Source: Candidatus Harrysmithiimonas galli (GTDB lineage: Bacteria > Bacillota > Bacilli > CAJFEE01). From it: DNA of 44,406 bases. Below are positions 4,613 through 33,311 of this stretch, piece after piece; the first letter of the stretch is position 1, and each line of letters begins with the position of its first letter. The stretch is from contig CAJFEE010000022.1 in assembly GCA_904373265.1 (NCBI GenBank), forward strand, positions 1 to 44,406. The letters are read 5' to 3'. Under the pieces are notes generated by a model. It was not told the origin of the DNA, ran no database searches, and saw only the letters and a program-made list of their open reading frames with translations. A program made the position numbers and the translations under genes.

Positions 4613-4666
4613 AACCATGCCTCCTAATCTTTCTTTTCATATACACTTTAATGGCTTTCTAGATTA

Positions 4667-4845
4667 GAGGCTGAAACAAAGTCAAAAATGGCTTTTTCAC
4701 ATTTGTCTCGCTTTCCTCAAATAGCCACCAGCCTACATCAAAACAACGACCTTACTTTGAATCTTCTCTCCCATAGATGTCTCATCCATGCAGAAACTTC
4801 AGAAAAAAATTGGTTTGAAAGCAAAAATACTTTTGTTCCAGCTTC
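4667..4845 (+). repeat. Dispersed intergenic repeat, copy A
   Basis: About 180 bases starting GAGGCTGAAACAAA and ending near ACTTTTGTTCCAGC, so the ends form an imperfect inverted repeat. The internal landmarks CTTCAGAAAAAAATTGG and TTTGAAAGCAAAAA align with copy C (12942-13140) and, on the other strand, with copy D (43627-43820). No reading frame. It looks like a diverged non-autonomous element or a structured intergenic repeat. Confidence 0.6.
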
Positions 4846-24649: not shown

Positions 24650-24905
24650 AAATTCAAAATAAAAAACCTCATCCAAATATAAGGGACGAGGTTCAGTCGC
24701 GGTACCACCCTAATTGAAAACAAAAGTCTGATCAGACTACTGTTCTCCACTCTAAAAAATTTCAACAGATTTTCATCCGGCCTTTCCTTATTTCATCGTC
24801 AAATCAAAATTCAGAAAAGCAGCTCCGAAGTGAACTCAAAAGAATTTGATACAAAGATGCTTTCAGTCTTAGACATCTTCTCCCTGCGTATATCTTCTTT
24901 CTACG
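24650..24905 (-). promoter_or_regulatory. T-box riboswitch, Phe specifier (pheST leader)
   Basis: The T-box motif AGGGTGGTACCGCG is at 24711-24698 on the minus strand. It is followed by a terminator (CCTCGTCCC ... GGATGAGGTTTTTT, 24692-24661) that overlaps the antiterminator in the usual way. A TTC Phe codon in GAGTTCAC (24834-24832) sits where the specifier loop is expected. Uncharged tRNA-Phe should favour read-through into pheS. The promoter must lie inside the 3' end of the methyltransferase gene. Confidence 0.9.
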
Positions 24906-24912
24906 TCTTCAT

Positions 24913-25686
24913 CTATGCTTTTAGTTTGTTGCTTTTTAAATAATATAACAAAATTCCGGCTGCAACTGCAACATTTAATGACTCACTTTGACCCAAAATC
25001 GGCAGATAAATATTTTGCGTCGTTTGATTTAGCAAATGTTGATCGATTCCGCCACCTTCATTTCCCACAATTAACATAAATTCATTTGACGGTGCAACTT
25101 CTTGATAATGCACAGCATTTTGCAAAGCAGAGCCATATACCGGAATTCCTTTTTCTTGACAACTATGAACGCAGACCAAACCATCCACTTCCAAAATCGG
25201 GAAATGAAAAATCGCACCTTGTGTAGCGCGCACAACCTTATCATTATATACATCTACTGTTCCTTTTGTATATAAAACCGCCTGAACACCAATGGCTTCT
25301 GCTGTACGAATCAGTGTACCAAAATTCCCTGGATCTTGAACTCTGTCCACCAATAAATAAGAACAACCATTTTTCAACTCCAAATCATAGACTGGCATGG
25401 AACAAATCGCTGCAATACCCTGTGAAGTTTCAATTTGGCTCAAATATTTCATCACAACTGGCGTTACCCAGTACATCTGAGTAATCTGTTCCAGCCATTT
25501 TACTGGTACATCTGTATTTTCTACGGCAAGTAGCACATCGACGCGACTTTGATGTTTTATTGCTTCTTCGATTAAATGCTCACCCTCAATAAAAAATTGT
25601 CGATATTGCATTCGTCCCTTTTTTGTTTGAAGCTTTTTCCATTCCTTTACCTTTGGATTTTGAATGGATTCAATCCTTTTATCCAT
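24913..25686 (-). CDS. ysgA: TrmH/SpoU-type RNA 2'-O-methyltransferase
   Basis: A SPOUT-class methyltransferase that methylates a ribose 2'-OH of rRNA or tRNA from S-adenosylmethionine. The N-terminal substrate-binding domain (RIESIQNPKVKEWKKLQ, residues about 3-100) precedes the SPOUT knot with RVQDPGNFGTLIRTAEAIG (about 139-157), LIVGNEGGGID and the C-terminal SLNVAVAAGILLYY. I start at MDKRIESI (257 residues) because AAGGGGC lies upstream; eight more codons are open. It lies between sspI and pheS, as ysgA does in B. subtilis. The exact RNA target is not known from the sequence. Confidence 0.92.
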   Translation of the reverse strand: MDKRIESIQNPKVKEWKKLQTKKGRMQYRQFFIEGEHLIEEAIKHQSRVDVLLAVENTDVPVKWLEQITQMYWVTPVVMKYLSQIETSQGIAAICSMPVYDLELKNGCSYLLVDRVQDPGNFGTLIRTAEAIGVQAVLYTKGTVDVYNDKVVRATQGAIFHFPILEVDGLVCVHSCQEKGIPVYGSALQNAVHYQEVAPSNEFMLIVGNEGGGIDQHLLNQTTQNIYLPILGQSESLNVAVAAGILLYYLKSNKLKA

Positions 25687-26013: not shown

Positions 26014-26199
26014 CACCCCCTTGCTCGATTCCACTATAACAGAAAAGATATGGACTTTTTTGAAAAAATGATAAAATAAATACAAACATTATTTTTTCTA
26101 ATTTGGGTCAATCGGTTCTCTAGCAACCAAGCCATTGTATCTATAGCCATTTAAATTTTGCAAACCATTTTTACAAAAACAAAAGGGGAAAATACAAGA

Positions 26200-26439
26200 T
26201 TGGCTACAATAATTTTTCAAATCAACATGTTGAGTATTTTATTAGGTATTTGTATTTTATCGATTGCATTATTGATATTGACAAGCAAAGTCTTACTGAC
26301 TCTACATTCAAAACAAGCAAAATCATACCTGCCAAAAAAATTTTGCTTCAATAACATGCAAAAAAGAATGCGTAACATATATGACAAAGTCATTTCTATC
26401 AACCCTCTCATCGTTTCAAACAAGCAGATCATTTTCTAA
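26200..26439 (+). CDS. Possible small single-pass membrane protein, 79 residues
   Basis: I do not recognise this frame. From a TTG behind AAAGGGG it would encode a protein with one strong hydrophobic helix (about residues 9-33, LSILLGICILSIALLIL) and a basic C-terminal half. A good plus-strand terminator (26422-26460) overlaps the stop codon, showing that a transcript on this strand probably ends here. The start is uncertain: an ATG ten codons later (26227) is another choice. Codon content is AT-rich like the surroundings, so it may also be a remnant. Confidence 0.35.
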   Translation: MATIIFQINMLSILLGICILSIALLILTSKVLLTLHSKQAKSYLPKKFCFNNMQKRMRNIYDKVISINPLIVSNKQIIF

Positions 26440-26460
26440 AATTCTTCTGCTTGTTTTTTT
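26422..26460 (+). terminator. Strong plus-strand terminator
   Basis: CAAGCAGA pairs with TCTGCTTG, extended by AT pairs inside, followed by seven T's. It is about 400 bases after sspI, too far to be an ordinary sspI terminator, and supports a small transcript here. Confidence 0.75.
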
Positions 26461-26955
26461 ATCTTCGCTTCAAAGTCGATAACTTTGCCTCAAAAACTTA
26501 TCTTGCATCGCTTTTATTTTATATTGTAAAACTCAAACAAGATTCTTCCATCTATCTTTTTATGATCTTTACAAAATATAAACAAGATAAACTTACTTCT
26601 TAAATCAAAATAAAGCATACTCACTTTATTTCACATCATCAAGATCGTTTGATTCAAACTGCGATCATACAAAAACTTTATTAAAAAACAAATCTTGACT
26701 TAACACAAAGCTTCTCATCAAAGAAAATGCTTTTTTACTGAACAAAGCTTAGCTCAAACTCATTTTCCTAAAACTTTTGTATCGGCACAACACTTACAGA
26801 AAAGAGAAAATCCAACAAGAGCAATATTTCGCAACAAACTTATAACTTTTCCAAGAAAGATCAGACAAATATGAAGAAGCCATTTTTGATTTTTACCCTG
26901 CTTCTTTTAAACAATATAAAAATATGGTAAGTTGACACATAAAACCGTCTTACAG
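26461..26955. other. Gene-free spacer downstream of arcB
   Basis: About 500 AT-rich bases between the plus-strand terminator and the arcB stop. No supported frame. Fragments such as AAAACTTTTGT near 26780 vaguely recall the repeat family but do not align in order. Confidence 0.45.
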
Positions 26956-26963
26956 TATTTAAA

Positions 26964-27959
26964 TTACCCACCAATGGTAGCCAATATAACAGCCTTAATG
27001 GTGTGCATTCGATTTTCTGCTTCATCAAAAACAACAGACTGCTTGGATTCAAACACTTCGTTTGTAACTTCCATTTCCTGAACGCCAAATTTTTGATAAA
27101 TTTTTTGTGCAACCTCTGTATTTAAATCATGGTAAGATGGCAAACAATGCATAAAAATAGCGTCTTTGCCAGCGTTTTCCATTACCTTTGCATTCACTTG
27201 ATATGACTGTAAAAGCTTTAACCGACTTTCCCAAACTTCTTCTGGCTCGCCCATTGAAACCCAAATATCAGTATAAATCACGTCTACATCTTGAGTCGCT
27301 GCCGCCACATCTTCAGTTAAAGTCACAGTTGCCCCGCTTTCCTTTGCAATTTCCTGACATGCATCCACCAACCATTTTTCTGGAAACAACGCTTTTGGTG
27401 CACAAGCTGTAAAATGCAGACCCATTTTGGCACATGCTACCATTAAAGAATTGCCCATATTATTTCGCGCATCTCCCATATAAACAAGCTTTATACCTTT
27501 TAAACGTCCCAACTTTTCCTCAATAGTTAGCAAATCTGCAAGCATCTGTGTGGGATGAAATTCATCTGTTAATCCGTTCCAAACCGGAACACCTGCATAT
27601 TCCGCCAACTCCTCCACAATTTTTTGTGAAAAACCTCGATACTCAATCCCATCATACATTCTACCCAATACACGCGCTGTATCTGCAATGGACTCCTTTT
27701 TTCCCATTTGTGAAGCACTCGGATCCAAAAAAGTTACGCCCATTCCCAAATCTCGTCCTGCCACTTCGAATGCACATCTTGTTCTTGTTGATGTTTTTTC
27801 AAATAATAAAACAATATTTTTCCCTTTCAATGTATCGTGTGCAATTCCAGCTTGCTTTAAACTTTTCAGATTCTTTGATAAATCCAATAAATAACGAATT
27901 TCATTTGGTGTAAAATCCAAAATTTTTAAAAATGAACGCCCTCTTAAATTTACAGCCAT
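26964..27959 (-). CDS. arcB: Ornithine carbamoyltransferase, catabolic type
   Basis: Interconverts citrulline plus phosphate with ornithine plus carbamoyl phosphate. The carbamoyl-phosphate loop STRTRC (about 56-61), the ornithine-site residues in HPTQMLAD and the catalytic HCLPS are present. Residues such as [18 protein letters not shown] and [14 protein letters not shown], the start [15 protein letters not shown] and the length of 331 match the arginine-deiminase-pathway enzyme (ArcB) better than the ~310-319-residue ArgF; this is by recall, without alignment. It stands alone, with no arcA, arcC or antiporter gene next to it. GGGGGAG precedes the ATG, and two Arg-box-like sites lie upstream. 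Confidence 0.88.
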
Positions 27960-28008
27960 ATTGACTCCCCCAATTCTTTTTTTCTAAAAAATTTCTTCCC
28001 CTATATAA

Positions 28009-28047
28009 TTGCATATTTATACAAATAATTCAAGTTTTATTCATTTT
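28009..28047 (-). promoter_or_regulatory. Two candidate Arg boxes upstream of arcB
   Basis: On the minus strand ATGAATAAAACTTGAAT and, a few bases later, TTTGTATAAATATGCAA resemble the Bacillus ArgR/AhrC operator (CATGAATAAAAATTCAAG type). They lie 50-90 bases before the arcB ATG. TTGAAT within the first could be a -35. A match by eye only. Confidence 0.4.
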
Positions 28048-28059
28048 TTAACTGTCTAT

Positions 28060-30200
28060 TTTCTAAAGAATATCATAAAAGACAAGACAGCCATTTTCTC
28101 TACCTCATTTCAACCATAACCAATCTTGATTTTTATACTCTTTTGATCAGCAAAGCAAAGAGAGAAAAATCTATTTTTAAATCATTCATGTCAACAATAA
28201 AATAAAAGATATTTTGTGGAAACGACGAAAAAGGTTCTCAAATTTCAGCCACATGCATCCATAATAAGTATCAAGAAGGTTTTATCAGAAAATGTGATCT
28301 ATTTTCAATACAAGTTGTGAAGGCTATCCAACCACATGTATGGCTTACATAATTATATATCATAATTTAGCATAGTAAACTCCTTAATTCTGAATTATGA
28401 TTTTTTATCTCCATAAAATACATTTTCTTGCGTTTTTTAAACTATATATGCATAAAAAGATATCATTTACAACTTTAATAGTAGAAATTTAAAAGCTACA
28501 CATACAAACCATTCATATGTCATCCATTTCATTGTCGTTCAATATCTAAAATTTTAATTCTGGTAATCACTAATGATTAAAATATTATACATAAAATATA
28601 AAAGTTTTTTAGTAGCGCATCATTTTGTTTTAGGAGAAAACTTCTACAGATGAAAATCCGTAATAACGTGAACAAAAAGATGCTAAACTAAGAGAATCGT
28701 TACCTAAAAAAATTGAACGCAAATTGTCCTTAAGCTATAATAAGGTAACGGTTAATTGTCTGATATTGAAGGTAAACATCCACTTTGTTACAAGGTCAAT
28801 CCTATTGACTTAATAGCAGCAAACACTTTAAAACATCACATAAGTAAGCGAATAACTGCCAATTACTCCCTTTTTAACGTACCCAAAATATCCAGATATA
28901 GTCAATTTTACTTAAATGGTATATCTAAAAATTCAACTGTACATAACTGAATTTCTCATGTACAAACTATAAGATGCCAGGCTGAAAAAACTTCAAAAAT
29001 AAATTACAGATAATGATTTAAGCCAAATAATTTTTTACATCTTATCTCAAAAAGCAAAAAAGCAACCCTCTTGGGATGCTTAAAAAATGATATCATTATT
29101 TCGCTATTTCCCCATTTCTCCAACAGGAAAAATATGCTCCATAACGTCTTTCACACAGTTGATTTTTTGTTTCCGTGGCGTGATTACATACTAAAATCTA
29201 CAATGGTTAAACAAAAAAGATAGATAAAAGGACAACCATTGATTAAGATAGAATCATTGAAAAAATATAAATAACAAAAAAAATACAAGAATCAATATCA
29301 GCATCATTCAAATTTAAAATATAAAGTGATTCATATGACCTCAGATCTAAAATAATAATCCTATACAATAATCATCATTGGAAAAAAGATTTCTCACTAA
29401 ATTAAGTTAAAAAAATAAAATAAAAAATAACAGCTGATCCTGATCTTAATAAAGCTATTTATCATTAAAATTAACCATTAGGCTATTATTTTTAATTTTT
29501 ATGTTAACAAATTATTTCTCATAAATATTAAACTCATTTACTTCTAATAGGTTTGTAAACTTTAGTATATTGACAGATTGTTTATTTAAAATTAGTTTTA
29601 CTTCTATAGTTTATCTTAGTATACGCACAAAGATTGACTTATTTCATTTTCAATGTATCACCCAAAAAATACAAAAAGTAACTTTTAAGGTTTTGAGTCA
29701 ATTCACTTAGAATAACAACTGAATGATCATAATTAGAATAAAATACATTCCTAGAATGATAGGAAAAATAAATTTTTCACATACCATAATTTTTCATTAA
29801 TCTGCTTTTCTTTGAAGAACAATACCTATAAATGTACTTTAGTAATTTCATACATAAAATGAGATAATTGGGAATAAAAAGAAATATTCAGTCTATAAAG
29901 AATTTCGTACATACAAAATATCTCTTTAAGATACTTTATTATATGATACGTGACTTAAACTATATTTTTAAAATATTCATATTTATGTTTCAAATAATAT
30001 TCCAGTTGATAAATATAGATAAAATCACGCTCCAAGAAACACTGAAGCATCAATACAACCTAAGCCAATAATAGTATTTTATAACTTTTATGAAGATGAT
30101 TATATTCAGTGAATACTATTAAATTACATTGACTCCTAATATAGACAGTTTATTTCTTGATCATGGCAGTAACAAATATTATTTTCTGACTTTTCCAGAT
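28060..30200. other. 2.1 kb gene-free region downstream of agrB
   Basis: The longest gap in the window, very AT-rich. No intact gene is supported. Two short coding-like islands are visible: 28667-28813 on plus (48 open codons with LPKKIERKLSLSYNKVTVN) and 29104-29190 on minus (28 codons ending IFPVGEMGK-stop). A minus-strand terminator-like hairpin at 29054-29081 follows the second island. The plus-strand frame 29868-30071 has no ribosome site. I infer decayed genes. Confidence 0.5.
29054..29081 (-). terminator. Orphan minus-strand terminator
   Basis: AAGCATCCC and GGGTTGCTT form a 9-base stem with a 4-base loop, followed by TTTTTGC on the minus strand. No intact gene precedes it within 1.1 kb; the nearest is agrB. 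It marks the end of a former or unrecognised transcript. Confidence 0.6.
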
Positions 30201-30211
30201 TGAAATTATGT

Positions 30212-30787
30212 TTAAACCGCCTGTTTCTTTTGCTTTACTACACCAATCCATAACATAAAGGTTAAGCCAAATAAAGCCACAGCAATACAACTCGCCGCAA
30301 TATTGAAATGAAAGGCAATAAAAAACACAAACAAAATCCCTTCAATCCCTAACAAAATACGGGCTCTTTTACGATAAACAACTACCTCAAGTTCATCAAG
30401 TGGCTTATTTTCATCTGCAATCGGAGATAACATATAAATCGTACAAACAGCAAGCAAAAACATTGCCAATAAAATATAAATATTTTCATGTAATATATGA
30501 ACCATCCAAAGCATTACCATCAATAAAAAAATAGAAATCATATAACAACGTAATTCTGTACGAGCATGGTACCCACCAGCATATGAGCGAACTGGGATAT
30601 ATGCTGCCATTAAAAAAATACTCTCCCATAACATATTGAACAAAGCACCAATAATTATAGTTGTTATAATATTCAAAAATAACATAATCCCCTGATGTAA
30701 CCCAAATAAATAAATAGATTCATCCGCTTTATCAATTGTACCATGATCAACCATTTTTTGTGTTAATCTACCTAAAATCTTATCCAT
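30212..30787 (-). CDS. agrB: AgrB-type peptide-processing membrane protease
   Basis: An accessory gene regulator B family cysteine endopeptidase: it cuts the C-terminal tail from AgrD and closes the thiolactone ring. The family signature RSYAGGYHARTELRC is complete, giving catalytic His74 and Cys81 with the usual 7-residue spacing, plus the later DENKPLDE segment. About six hydrophobic segments place it in the membrane. It is 191 residues from the ATG with AAGGGAGAG upstream; the open frame runs 12 codons further but swallows that site. It lies 130-170 bases downstream of agrD, beyond a hairpin terminator. Confidence 0.93.
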   Translation of the reverse strand: MDKILGRLTQKMVDHGTIDKADESIYLFGLHQGIMLFLNIITTIIIGALFNMLWESIFLMAAYIPVRSYAGGYHARTELRCYMISIFLLMVMLWMVHILHENIYILLAMFLLAVCTIYMLSPIADENKPLDELEVVVYRKRARILLGIEGILFVFFIAFHFNIAASCIAVALFGLTFMLWIGVVKQKKQAV

Positions 30788-30914
30788 ACGATTCTCTCCC
30801 TTTGTATCCAAGTTAGCAAACAAAAATAGAATATCTAAAGAAAATACAAAAAATTATATTTATCATTCCCTGACTCTTATACAATCAACATTTTTATCCC
30901 GCCCTCAATCCTCA

Positions 30915-30945
30915 TAAAAATAGACAAGCTCAAAAAGCCTGTCTA
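30915..30945 (-). terminator. Terminator between agrD and agrB
   Basis: On the minus strand TAGACAGGCT and AGCTTGTCTA form a 10-base stem with one wobble and a 5-base loop, followed by TTTTTAT. It lies 9 bases after the agrD stop, so agrB would be made only by read-through or from its own promoter. Confidence 0.75.
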
Positions 30946-30954
30946 TCTAATATG

Positions 30955-31098
30955 TTAAAATCTTCGAAGTTTTTTTGATTTTTCTGGAAGTTTTCGTTGG
31001 TGTACCCAATATGAGCAGGCAAGGTTTGCATTAAACCCTGTAATTGATTTCGCATACACAGCTAAAAAACTGTATACTCGAGATAATACTTTTCCCAC
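30955..31098 (-). CDS. agrD: AgrD-type autoinducer peptide precursor
   Basis: A 47-residue frame between agrC and agrB that starts with GTG. It begins MGKVLSRVYSFLAVYAK, an amphipathic N-terminal helix as in AgrD peptides. Then follows LACSYWVHQRKLPEKSKKL. Cys28 is followed by four residues (SYWV), enough for the five-residue thiolactone ring, and Pro38 is six residues after the ring, exactly as in Staphylococcus aureus AgrD (CDFIM-DEVEVP). The tail is strongly basic, unlike the acidic S. aureus tail but like the QPKVP-type tails of other Firmicutes. The GTG lies 8 bases after GAGGTG; an overlapping ATG two bases upstream gives only 12 codons. It has its own promoter and terminator. The ring sequence is a prediction. 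Confidence 0.85.
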   Translation of the reverse strand: MGKVLSRVYSFLAVYAKSITGFNANLACSYWVHQRKLPEKSKKLRRF

Positions 31099-31115
31099 AT
31101 TCAACACCTCACTTT

Positions 31116-31163
31116 CTAATTTTTATTGTACAAGATAAAAAAATTATTTTCAATAAAAATTAG
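31116..31163. repeat. Perfect 13-bp inverted repeat over the agrD promoter
   Basis: CTAATTTTTATTG (31116-31128) and CAATAAAAATTAG (31151-31163) are exact reverse complements separated by 22 bases. The arms overlap the -10 and the -35 boxes of the agrD promoter. A related sequence, ACAATTTTTATTC, recurs at about 31173-31185. It could be a regulator operator or an mRNA structure. Confidence 0.8.
31125..31153 (-). promoter_or_regulatory. Sigma-A promoter of agrD
   Basis: The minus strand has TTGAAA (31153-31148), a 17-base spacer and TACAAT (31130-31125), with a TG before the -10. It lies between the agrC stop and agrD, so agrD has its own transcript starting about 20 bases before the GTG. Confidence 0.75.
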
Positions 31164-31214
31164 ATTTTTTATAACAATTTTTATTCATCATATTTTGACA
31201 ATATCTGACTTTAA

Positions 31215-32501
31215 TCACCCAATATTTCCTGAAATATAGAGTAATACATCAACGGTAAACTTATGCTCTTGTTGTGAAATTTCCAATGTGCCATTATATT
31301 TTTCTATCATTTTCTTTACACTCTTCAAACCATAACCATGATTGTTTTTTTGACTTTTTGTAGTTAAATAAATACCATTTCTAATTTTTAACGTGTGACT
31401 ATACGTATTAACGATCCGAATCAAGAGTAAATTTTTGTGGACTCTGACTTCACAATAAATTTTTTTGTGATCGGTGCACTGCTCAGCCGCTTCAATTGCA
31501 TTATCTAAAAGATTTCCAAGTATAACGGTTAAATCAAAAGTTGAAATATCAAGCTGTTCAGGGACAAGAAACAAATGTTTAAAGTAAATATTTTTGGATG
31601 TTGCGCATAAAAACTTTTCATTTACGATATTATCGATTACAACATTTCCTGATTGGATACTATTATTCTTACCTACGATTAATTCTGTAAATGTATTTAA
31701 ATATTTTTGCAGCTCTTCAAATCTTTCTTCCTTCACTAAAGTCTGAATTGAAATAATATGGTTTTTCATATCATGACGCAACATTCGAATTTGTATCTCA
31801 GATTCTCGCATTAAATCAAATTGACGGACATATGCCTCATGTTGAACTTGCATAATTTTTCGCTCTATTCTATCTTTATTGCTCTTTTTCACATAATCAA
31901 ACAAATAAAATACAAAAAAATTCAATAGAAGCAAAATCACTGCACTGATCATTTTCTGAAAAGGATACTGTGAAAATTGTTCTTCCATAATCATCAATGC
32001 CAAATATATACTTCCCAATGGTAAACAAATGACCAGAATCCAATGCAAAGTAGATATTTCATAATTTTCCTTTATATATTTAAAATTTTGGATCAACAAA
32101 AAAATAAAATATAATAGAATGGTAGAGACAAACAAAACCAAAAGCAATTTTCCTTGTGTAATATGAACACCCAATTCTTTTAATAAGAAATACCCTATAC
32201 TTTCTACCAAAAATGAAATTACATATAATAAAAAAGTCGCAACAAAACGCAGAAACAAGCTTCCTTTATAATTAAAAGTTAAAAGAAACATGAAAACAAT
32301 ATTGTTTATCAAATTTAAAAAAGATGAGTCAAATAAAAGATAAATGCTACTGTTTAAAACAAAATATACAGTATAACTACATAGCTCAACACGTGAAGAA
32401 AAAATTCTCTCTGCAAAAAACAAACGGATAAACTTATAAAATACATATGTACGGAAAATATTACAAACTAGATACATCTCATCATTGAAAGTAAACTCCA
32501 T
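31215..32501 (-). CDS. agrC: AgrC-type sensor histidine kinase
   Basis: A 428-residue receptor kinase of the HPK10/AgrC class. The first ~205 residues hold about six transmembrane helices, the expected autoinducer sensor. A coiled linker follows (about 205-238), then the phosphoacceptor region LRHDMKNHIISIQ with His243, and a GHKL ATPase domain with N box GNLLDNAIEA (330-338) and G box GYGLKSVKKM (389-398). AAGGGAAGGG precedes the ATG. Its ligand should be the peptide from the neighbouring agrD. No AgrA-like LytTR response regulator is found in the window. It has its own promoter at 32613-32641. Confidence 0.92.
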   Translation of the reverse strand: MEFTFNDEMYLVCNIFRTYVFYKFIRLFFAERIFSSRVELCSYTVYFVLNSSIYLLFDSSFLNLINNIVFMFLLTFNYKGSLFLRFVATFLLYVISFLVESIGYFLLKELGVHITQGKLLLVLFVSTILLYFIFLLIQNFKYIKENYEISTLHWILVICLPLGSIYLALMIMEEQFSQYPFQKMISAVILLLLNFFVFYLFDYVKKSNKDRIERKIMQVQHEAYVRQFDLMRESEIQIRMLRHDMKNHIISIQTLVKEERFEELQKYLNTFTELIVGKNNSIQSGNVVIDNIVNEKFLCATSKNIYFKHLFLVPEQLDISTFDLTVILGNLLDNAIEAAEQCTDHKKIYCEVRVHKNLLLIRIVNTYSHTLKIRNGIYLTTKSQKNNHGYGLKSVKKMIEKYNGTLEISQQEHKFTVDVLLYISGNIG

Positions 32502-32612
32502 GATACCCTTCCCTTTCTCTCTTCACATACAAATGAAAAATATCTGCTTATCTTTAATTTTATTTTCCATTTCAAATCAGAAAAATCTATTTCTCTTGTT
32601 TTCTGTATTTTC

Positions 32613-32641
32613 ATTATACCGCTTCAAAATAAAAAAAACAA
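32613..32641 (-). promoter_or_regulatory. Sigma-A promoter of agrC
   Basis: The minus strand has TTGTTT (32641-32636), a 17-base spacer and TATAAT (32618-32613), about 110 bases before the agrC ATG. The long leader shows no terminator. Confidence 0.55.
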
Positions 32642-32644
32642 AAT

Positions 32645-33305
32645 ATCTAGTTTTATCTATAGTGAGAAGATCAAAGTTAAAATAAAATTTTCTACATAAA
32701 TATTAAATGGATACTCTTTGAATGAAAAAGATCATGAAGAAAGAAATACTGAAATCAAAAGATAAAGCAATTTCTTATTCTAAAACAAAAATGACATGAT
32801 TGAAATGAGATCTTTAAAACAAAAGGAACAATCACTGATATGAAAAAGGCAACCGTTTATGAACATAATGATCGAAAACCTTTTTAGCTGATTTGAATTA
32901 TTAAAAGGAATGAAAAATATTATGTTGGTATATGATGTATTTATGATTTCAAATCTAGCCGAATTGAAGCCAAATAAAAAGGAACAAATCTGGTACAATT
33001 ACAGATTTCATTCCTCTTAGAAATAACATAAAAAAACCATTGGTTCTGGACAATTTTTTGATTGTATACCCATCGCAAATCAAACAAAACCTCAAGTTTC
33101 AAACAACTTAGTTGTAAATATTTTCGTTTGCAGTCTTGGCATAATAATAAAAATAGCTAAAACCTGTCAATGCAGTATAATTATTGAGACATTCAATCTT
33201 TTATTTTCTCCACAAAACGAATCAAAAAAATCAAAATAATATATAAATAAAACATTCAAAAAATAGTAAATTTTATTTTTTATATCTTTAATGCAAATTT
33301 ATTTT
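32645..33305. other. Gene-free region between agrC and ysdC
   Basis: About 660 AT-rich bases. On the plus strand 32787-33020 reads as about 75 codons with two in-frame TGA codons (segments such as NIMLVYDVFMISNLAELK), possibly a broken gene or chance. Nothing else supported. Confidence 0.4.
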
Positions 33306-33311
33306 ATGAAA

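Follow-up and report, generated by a model that had tools for sequence, protein, structure and literature searches.

The window analysed here, a stretch of 44,406 nucleotides from Candidatus Harrysmithiimonas galli, carries on its minus strand an agrC-agrD-agrB locus whose products are, with a probability that we put at close to nine in ten, the sensor kinase, precursor and protease of a peptide quorum-sensing system. The predicted signal, the cyclic pentapeptide CSYWV, would be an addition to the agr repertoire and otherwise an ordinary one for agr of the Clostridia type. The more unusual point is that the window operon lacks a response regulator, which an incomplete agr operon on another contig of the genome (C10) could supply.

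The agrD frame and its neighbours

The gene for the AIP precursor, agrD, occupies positions 30955 to 31098 of the minus strand and reads through 47 codons from a GTG at 31098 to a TAA stop at 30955, giving the protein MGKVLSRVYSFLAVYAKSITGFNANLACSYWVHQRKLPEKSKKLRRF. A ribosome-binding site, GAGGTG (31105 to 31110, minus strand), stands 6 nt 5' of this GTG. The ORF lister takes the frame further, to an upstream GTG at 31107, but since that codon overlaps the ribosome-binding site we consider 31098 the better start. The product has a single cysteine, Cys28, and a proline, Pro38, six residues past Val32. The GTG-started frame, the GAGGTG and both residues are present exactly as the first-pass annotation had claimed, and the amphipathic N-terminus that it proposed is borne out by an Eisenberg moment of 0.43 over residues 1-22, a value reached by 0.5% of shuffles. 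Searched against TIGR04223, the NCBIfam AgrD model, the protein scored 30.7 bits (E 2.4e-7) against a curated cut-off of 19 bits, which upholds its naming as AgrD, and when the same model was run over all six frames of the genome, the frame was matched again (E 2.4e-6). No Pfam-A model matched the protein, and it shares 50% identity over 42 residues with the AgrD of contig C10. Its score, a cysteine ahead of four further ring residues, a charged tail that includes Gln and Pro, and an amphipathic leader place the window AgrD in a known family, as a new member. The TIGR04223 E-values and the position of the frame between agrC and agrB argue that it did not arise by chance. To call the gene hidden, as had been done, was an overstatement, since the peptide scores above the cut-off of the model that NCBI itself uses for annotation.

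Upstream of agrD lies agrC (31215 to 32501, minus strand), which encodes a membrane sensor kinase with an RHDMKNH box and a GHKL domain (PF14501, 95 bits). It is of the AgrC type, having a membrane N-terminus, the His box and the GHKL ATPase, and it groups with agr-linked kinases; its match to the staphylococcal AgrC model NF046015 is weak, 32 of 500 bits, and with a score so far below the cut-off it is not an equivalog of that model. Downstream lies agrB (30212 to 30787, minus strand; best start the ATG at 30787), encoding a membrane cysteine protease which would process AgrD. It carries the PF04647 domain (132 bits) and the catalytic-type residues of AgrB, His74 and Cys81, conserved in 29/29 and 28/29 sequences respectively, and a search of PDB sequences with it returned no match. 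The flanking GHKL kinase and AgrB reported earlier were thus both recovered. Working together, these genes would produce AgrD as a 47-residue precursor with its amphipathic N-terminus at the membrane; AgrB would cut it after Val32 and close a thiolactone between Cys28 and Val32; and the cyclic peptide, CSYWV perhaps with an N-terminal tail, would be exported and sensed by AgrC.

Directly 3' of agrD there is a hairpin followed by a short T-run (30918 to 30948, minus strand), a probable terminator as judged from folding (-19.3 kcal/mol, z -6.9, matched by 0 of 200 shuffles); it is absent from the list given by a simple terminator scan. The C10 agrD likewise has a hairpin with a T-run 3' of it. 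The gap between the agrD stop and the agrB start is 167 nt, and among 22 relatives that have agrB next after agrD, 21 keep the agrB reading frame open at the agrD stop itself or at a point no more than 6 nt away. A candidate promoter, TTGAAA-17-TACAAT (31125 to 31153, minus strand), was found by scanning between agrC and agrD, some 26 nt 5' of the agrD start codon; since promoter-like sites in the region do not exceed chance in number, it is its position that speaks for it.

The predicted ring and its relatives

The mature ring CSYWV (Cys28-Val32, positions 31003 to 31017, minus strand) is well predicted from the alignment of AgrD sequences and is followed by the recognition segment HQRKLPEK. 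A pattern Cys-x4-x-Q-x-x-x-Pro is common to about 39 AgrD relatives, with which Cys28, Gln34 and Pro38 of the window protein align. Among 39 distinct cores, picked by a motif filter which itself required part of this pattern, the ring starts with Cys in 34, position +6 is Gln in 38, and Pro occupies +7 in 30 and +10 in 37; an unfiltered AgrD list, judged by eye, gave the same picture. Conservation of Cys28 and Pro38 in related sequences, which had been set as a test of the assignment, therefore holds, and extends to Gln34. Of the ring as first proposed, the alignment supports the pentapeptide, while its cyclic form is one that we infer.

The AgrD of S. aureus carries a pair of prolines in its tail, at ring +3 and ring +6. 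The window locus resembles agrBDCA of that species in its protease, precursor and kinase families, in a five-residue ring and in a Pro at ring +6, and departs from it in gene order, in having no linked agrA and in carrying Arg for Pro at +3. The first-pass claim of a proline spaced as in S. aureus is right for +6, with the qualification that in the tail HQRKLP, Arg35 stands at ring +3 (+7 counted from the cysteine) and Pro at +6 only. This Arg in place of the usual Pro might weaken recognition by AgrB. Pro is missing at +3 in several other AgrD as well, making Arg35 an uncommon and not an isolated departure.

The first-pass annotation had also called the ring unfamiliar. Among the papers searched, CSYWV gave one irrelevant match and none that names it in this context. 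The CSYW type is not unique, since one clostridial relative (L064) carries CSYWF; a literature search for CSYWF together with 'autoinducing' returned nothing. No relatives were found among viral contigs searched with the AgrD alignment. The nearest counterparts of the locus are agrA-C-D-B loci of Clostridia (such as L011, L012, L084 and L086), which are like it in AgrC, AgrD and AgrB subtype, in the order C-D-B and in a tail of the kind QxKxPExxKKLRKF, common to them and the window AgrD; they differ in possessing agrA, in agrD and agrB that touch, where the window has a hairpin and 167 nt, and in their ring. An AgrD-type pentapeptide of Clostridium thermocellum, a Ser lactone, was detected by mass spectrometry and has no surrounding agr operon (PMC5322536). 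It shares with the window peptide the five-residue ring and a place outside a complete agr operon, whereas the predicted window ring has Cys and not Ser and is encoded next to agrC and agrB.

Two further arrangements of agrD were seen among the relatives. Locus L088 (G492) encodes at 4655-4828 a precursor resembling AgrD in which Gly stands where the ring would start, NTAGVYFFHQPKLP. It also has agrA and an agrC broken into two frames, no agrB was detected there, and the locus is perhaps decaying. In Lacrimispora amygdalina (L048/L010), agrD is apparently divergent from agrA-C-B and outside the operon.

Three agr loci in one genome

The genome, a draft of 59 contigs, holds three AgrD above the cut-off, two AgrB and five LytTR regulators. 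Contig C2 has a complete agrA-C-D-B locus with the ring CAWIL, contig C10 has agrA-C-D with the ring CVFTA and no agrB, and the window has agrC-D-B without the linked LytTR regulator AgrA of a complete agr operon; a LytTR search of the window gave no match. The first-pass annotation had not remarked on this missing agrA, and the complementary C10 locus was out of its sight. The clostridial loci nearest to both incomplete ones are ordered agrA-C-D-B, so that the window and C10 loci each lack one end of the standard operon. Six-frame profile searches found no relic of agrA upstream of the window agrC and none of agrB downstream of the C10 agrD. A possible fourth agrD, at C18:26293, was rejected because it scored 16.8 bits, below the cut-off, and is antisense to a long open frame. 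Another locus without agrA was seen in a genome of the same class, where agrC-D-B (L040, G012:C6, 1379-4765) lies directly 3' of a gene resembling a transposase; in the 9-kb stretch around it no agrA was found.

Since agrA is missing at the window and agrB at C10, the two loci may share parts. We propose, tentatively and as a reading that is less likely than not, that they form one cross-wired circuit in which one AgrB serves two peptides and one AgrA two kinases, with C2 independent of both: the window AgrB would mature the CSYWV as well as the CVFTA precursor, and the C10 AgrA would take phosphate from the window and the C10 kinases. The evidence for sharing consists of gene counts and partner homology. 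The AgrC proteins nearest to that of the window are those of L057 and L084 (37%), and those nearest to the C10 AgrC are of L058 and L086 (37%). The L084 AgrA, which partners an AgrC nearest to that of the window, is 44% identical to the C10 AgrA and about 25% to the C2 AgrA, and the L058 AgrB, which partners an AgrC nearest to that of C10, scores 131 bits against the window AgrB and 81 against the C2 AgrB. This partner homology makes the window AgrB and the C10 AgrA the best candidates for shared parts, and a protease serving both loci would fit with an agrB expressed on its own. On the other hand, the window and C10 AgrC are 33% identical and are not sisters in a tree which is itself unresolved, and for this reason the two systems may have been acquired independently and have nothing to do with each other. 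The C10 AgrD could also be processed by the AgrB of C2. An origin of the two loci by duplication within the genome was considered and is not supported, their AgrC being nearest to different clostridial ones.

It is also conceivable, though again less likely than not, that signal production at the window is self-contained and that its AgrC passes the signal to an unlinked orphan LytTR regulator or to a regulator of another type, with no wiring to C10. The genome has five LytTR regulators, and those on contigs C34 and C30 are AgrA-like and have no adjacent AgrC-type kinase, so that either could serve in place of the C10 AgrA. Compared with the AgrA of the locus whose AgrC is nearest to that of the window, however, they are 24-27% identical (24% for C34), as against 44% for the C10 AgrA. 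The two LytTR regulators lacking such a kinase lie at L016 549-1271 and L017 4073-4807; close to the latter are genes for a site-specific integrase and a resolvase-like protein.

The tentative circuit of window and C10 parts has a parallel in C. autoethanogenum, where agrA is missing from one agr locus, both agrB and agrA from another, agrA lies elsewhere, and the two peptides are proposed to be matured by a single AgrB (PMC8748961). The two cases are alike in having two incomplete loci and a single AgrB proposed for both peptides; they differ in that agrA is in neither of those loci, whereas here C10 keeps it and a third locus is complete, and in gene order, agrD-agrC-agrB there and agrC-D-B in the window (PMC8748961). 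The present genome offers a direct test case for the pairing of one AgrB with two precursors, proposed and unproved in C. autoethanogenum, with a candidate AgrA identified. If the cross-wired circuit is real, it responds to two signals and belongs to a lineage in whose class this AgrD subtype is rare. A profile built from five AgrD matched 5 of 399 sampled genomes of the class of the window genome and, in the class to which a Lacrimispora genome belongs (Clostridia), 24 of 291; since the profile is specific to one subtype these are not counts of all AgrD.

Setting and origin of the locus

The agr genes lie, together with argF and without agrA, in an A+T-rich segment (26014 to 33311) between a ysdC-like M42 peptidase gene and sspI. 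Its agr part has a G+C content of 0.25-0.30, as against about 0.36 elsewhere. In G001, the one genome of the same family compared, sspI and an rRNA methyltransferase gene come straight after the M42 peptidase gene; neither argF nor agrCDB lies between the peptidase gene and sspI, and no AgrD of the window type was found genome-wide. Most simply, the agr locus is an acquired island, with loss in G001 as the alternative. Its ancestry is possibly clostridial, since of the sequences compared those closest to its AgrB and AgrC come from Clostridia. Long A+T-rich flanks of agrCDB (27960-30211 and 32502-33311) are without convincing genes in a window that is otherwise gene-rich, and an Rfam search gave no match in either.

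Such surroundings could suggest that the island is decaying, having lost agrA, had agrB cut off by the hairpin and ring +3 changed, and that it is now non-functional or able only to eavesdrop. The A+T-richness, the long non-coding flanks, the missing agrA and the Arg for Pro would all fit this, but we consider it improbable, because all three frames are intact, the catalytic-type residues of AgrB and the kinase motifs are kept, no decayed trace of agrA was found and other AgrD sequences lack the +3 proline too. That the short frame is a mere chance ORF in the agrC-agrB spacer, as its GTG start, its shortness and its A+T-rich surroundings might hint, can be dismissed, for the curated model match (E 2.4e-7) already contradicts it, as do the 50% identity to the C10 paralogue and a motif near-universal among AgrD relatives.

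The other genes of the window are Bacillus-like housekeeping genes together with two spore genes, sspI and one that is GerM-like, which make it very probable that the host belongs to the Bacilli and forms spores, the latter in agreement with the first-pass annotation. Control of sporulation, biofilm or toxins by this agr system is speculation. Elsewhere in the window, a T-box leader was seen 5' of pheS-pheT, at 24679-24924.
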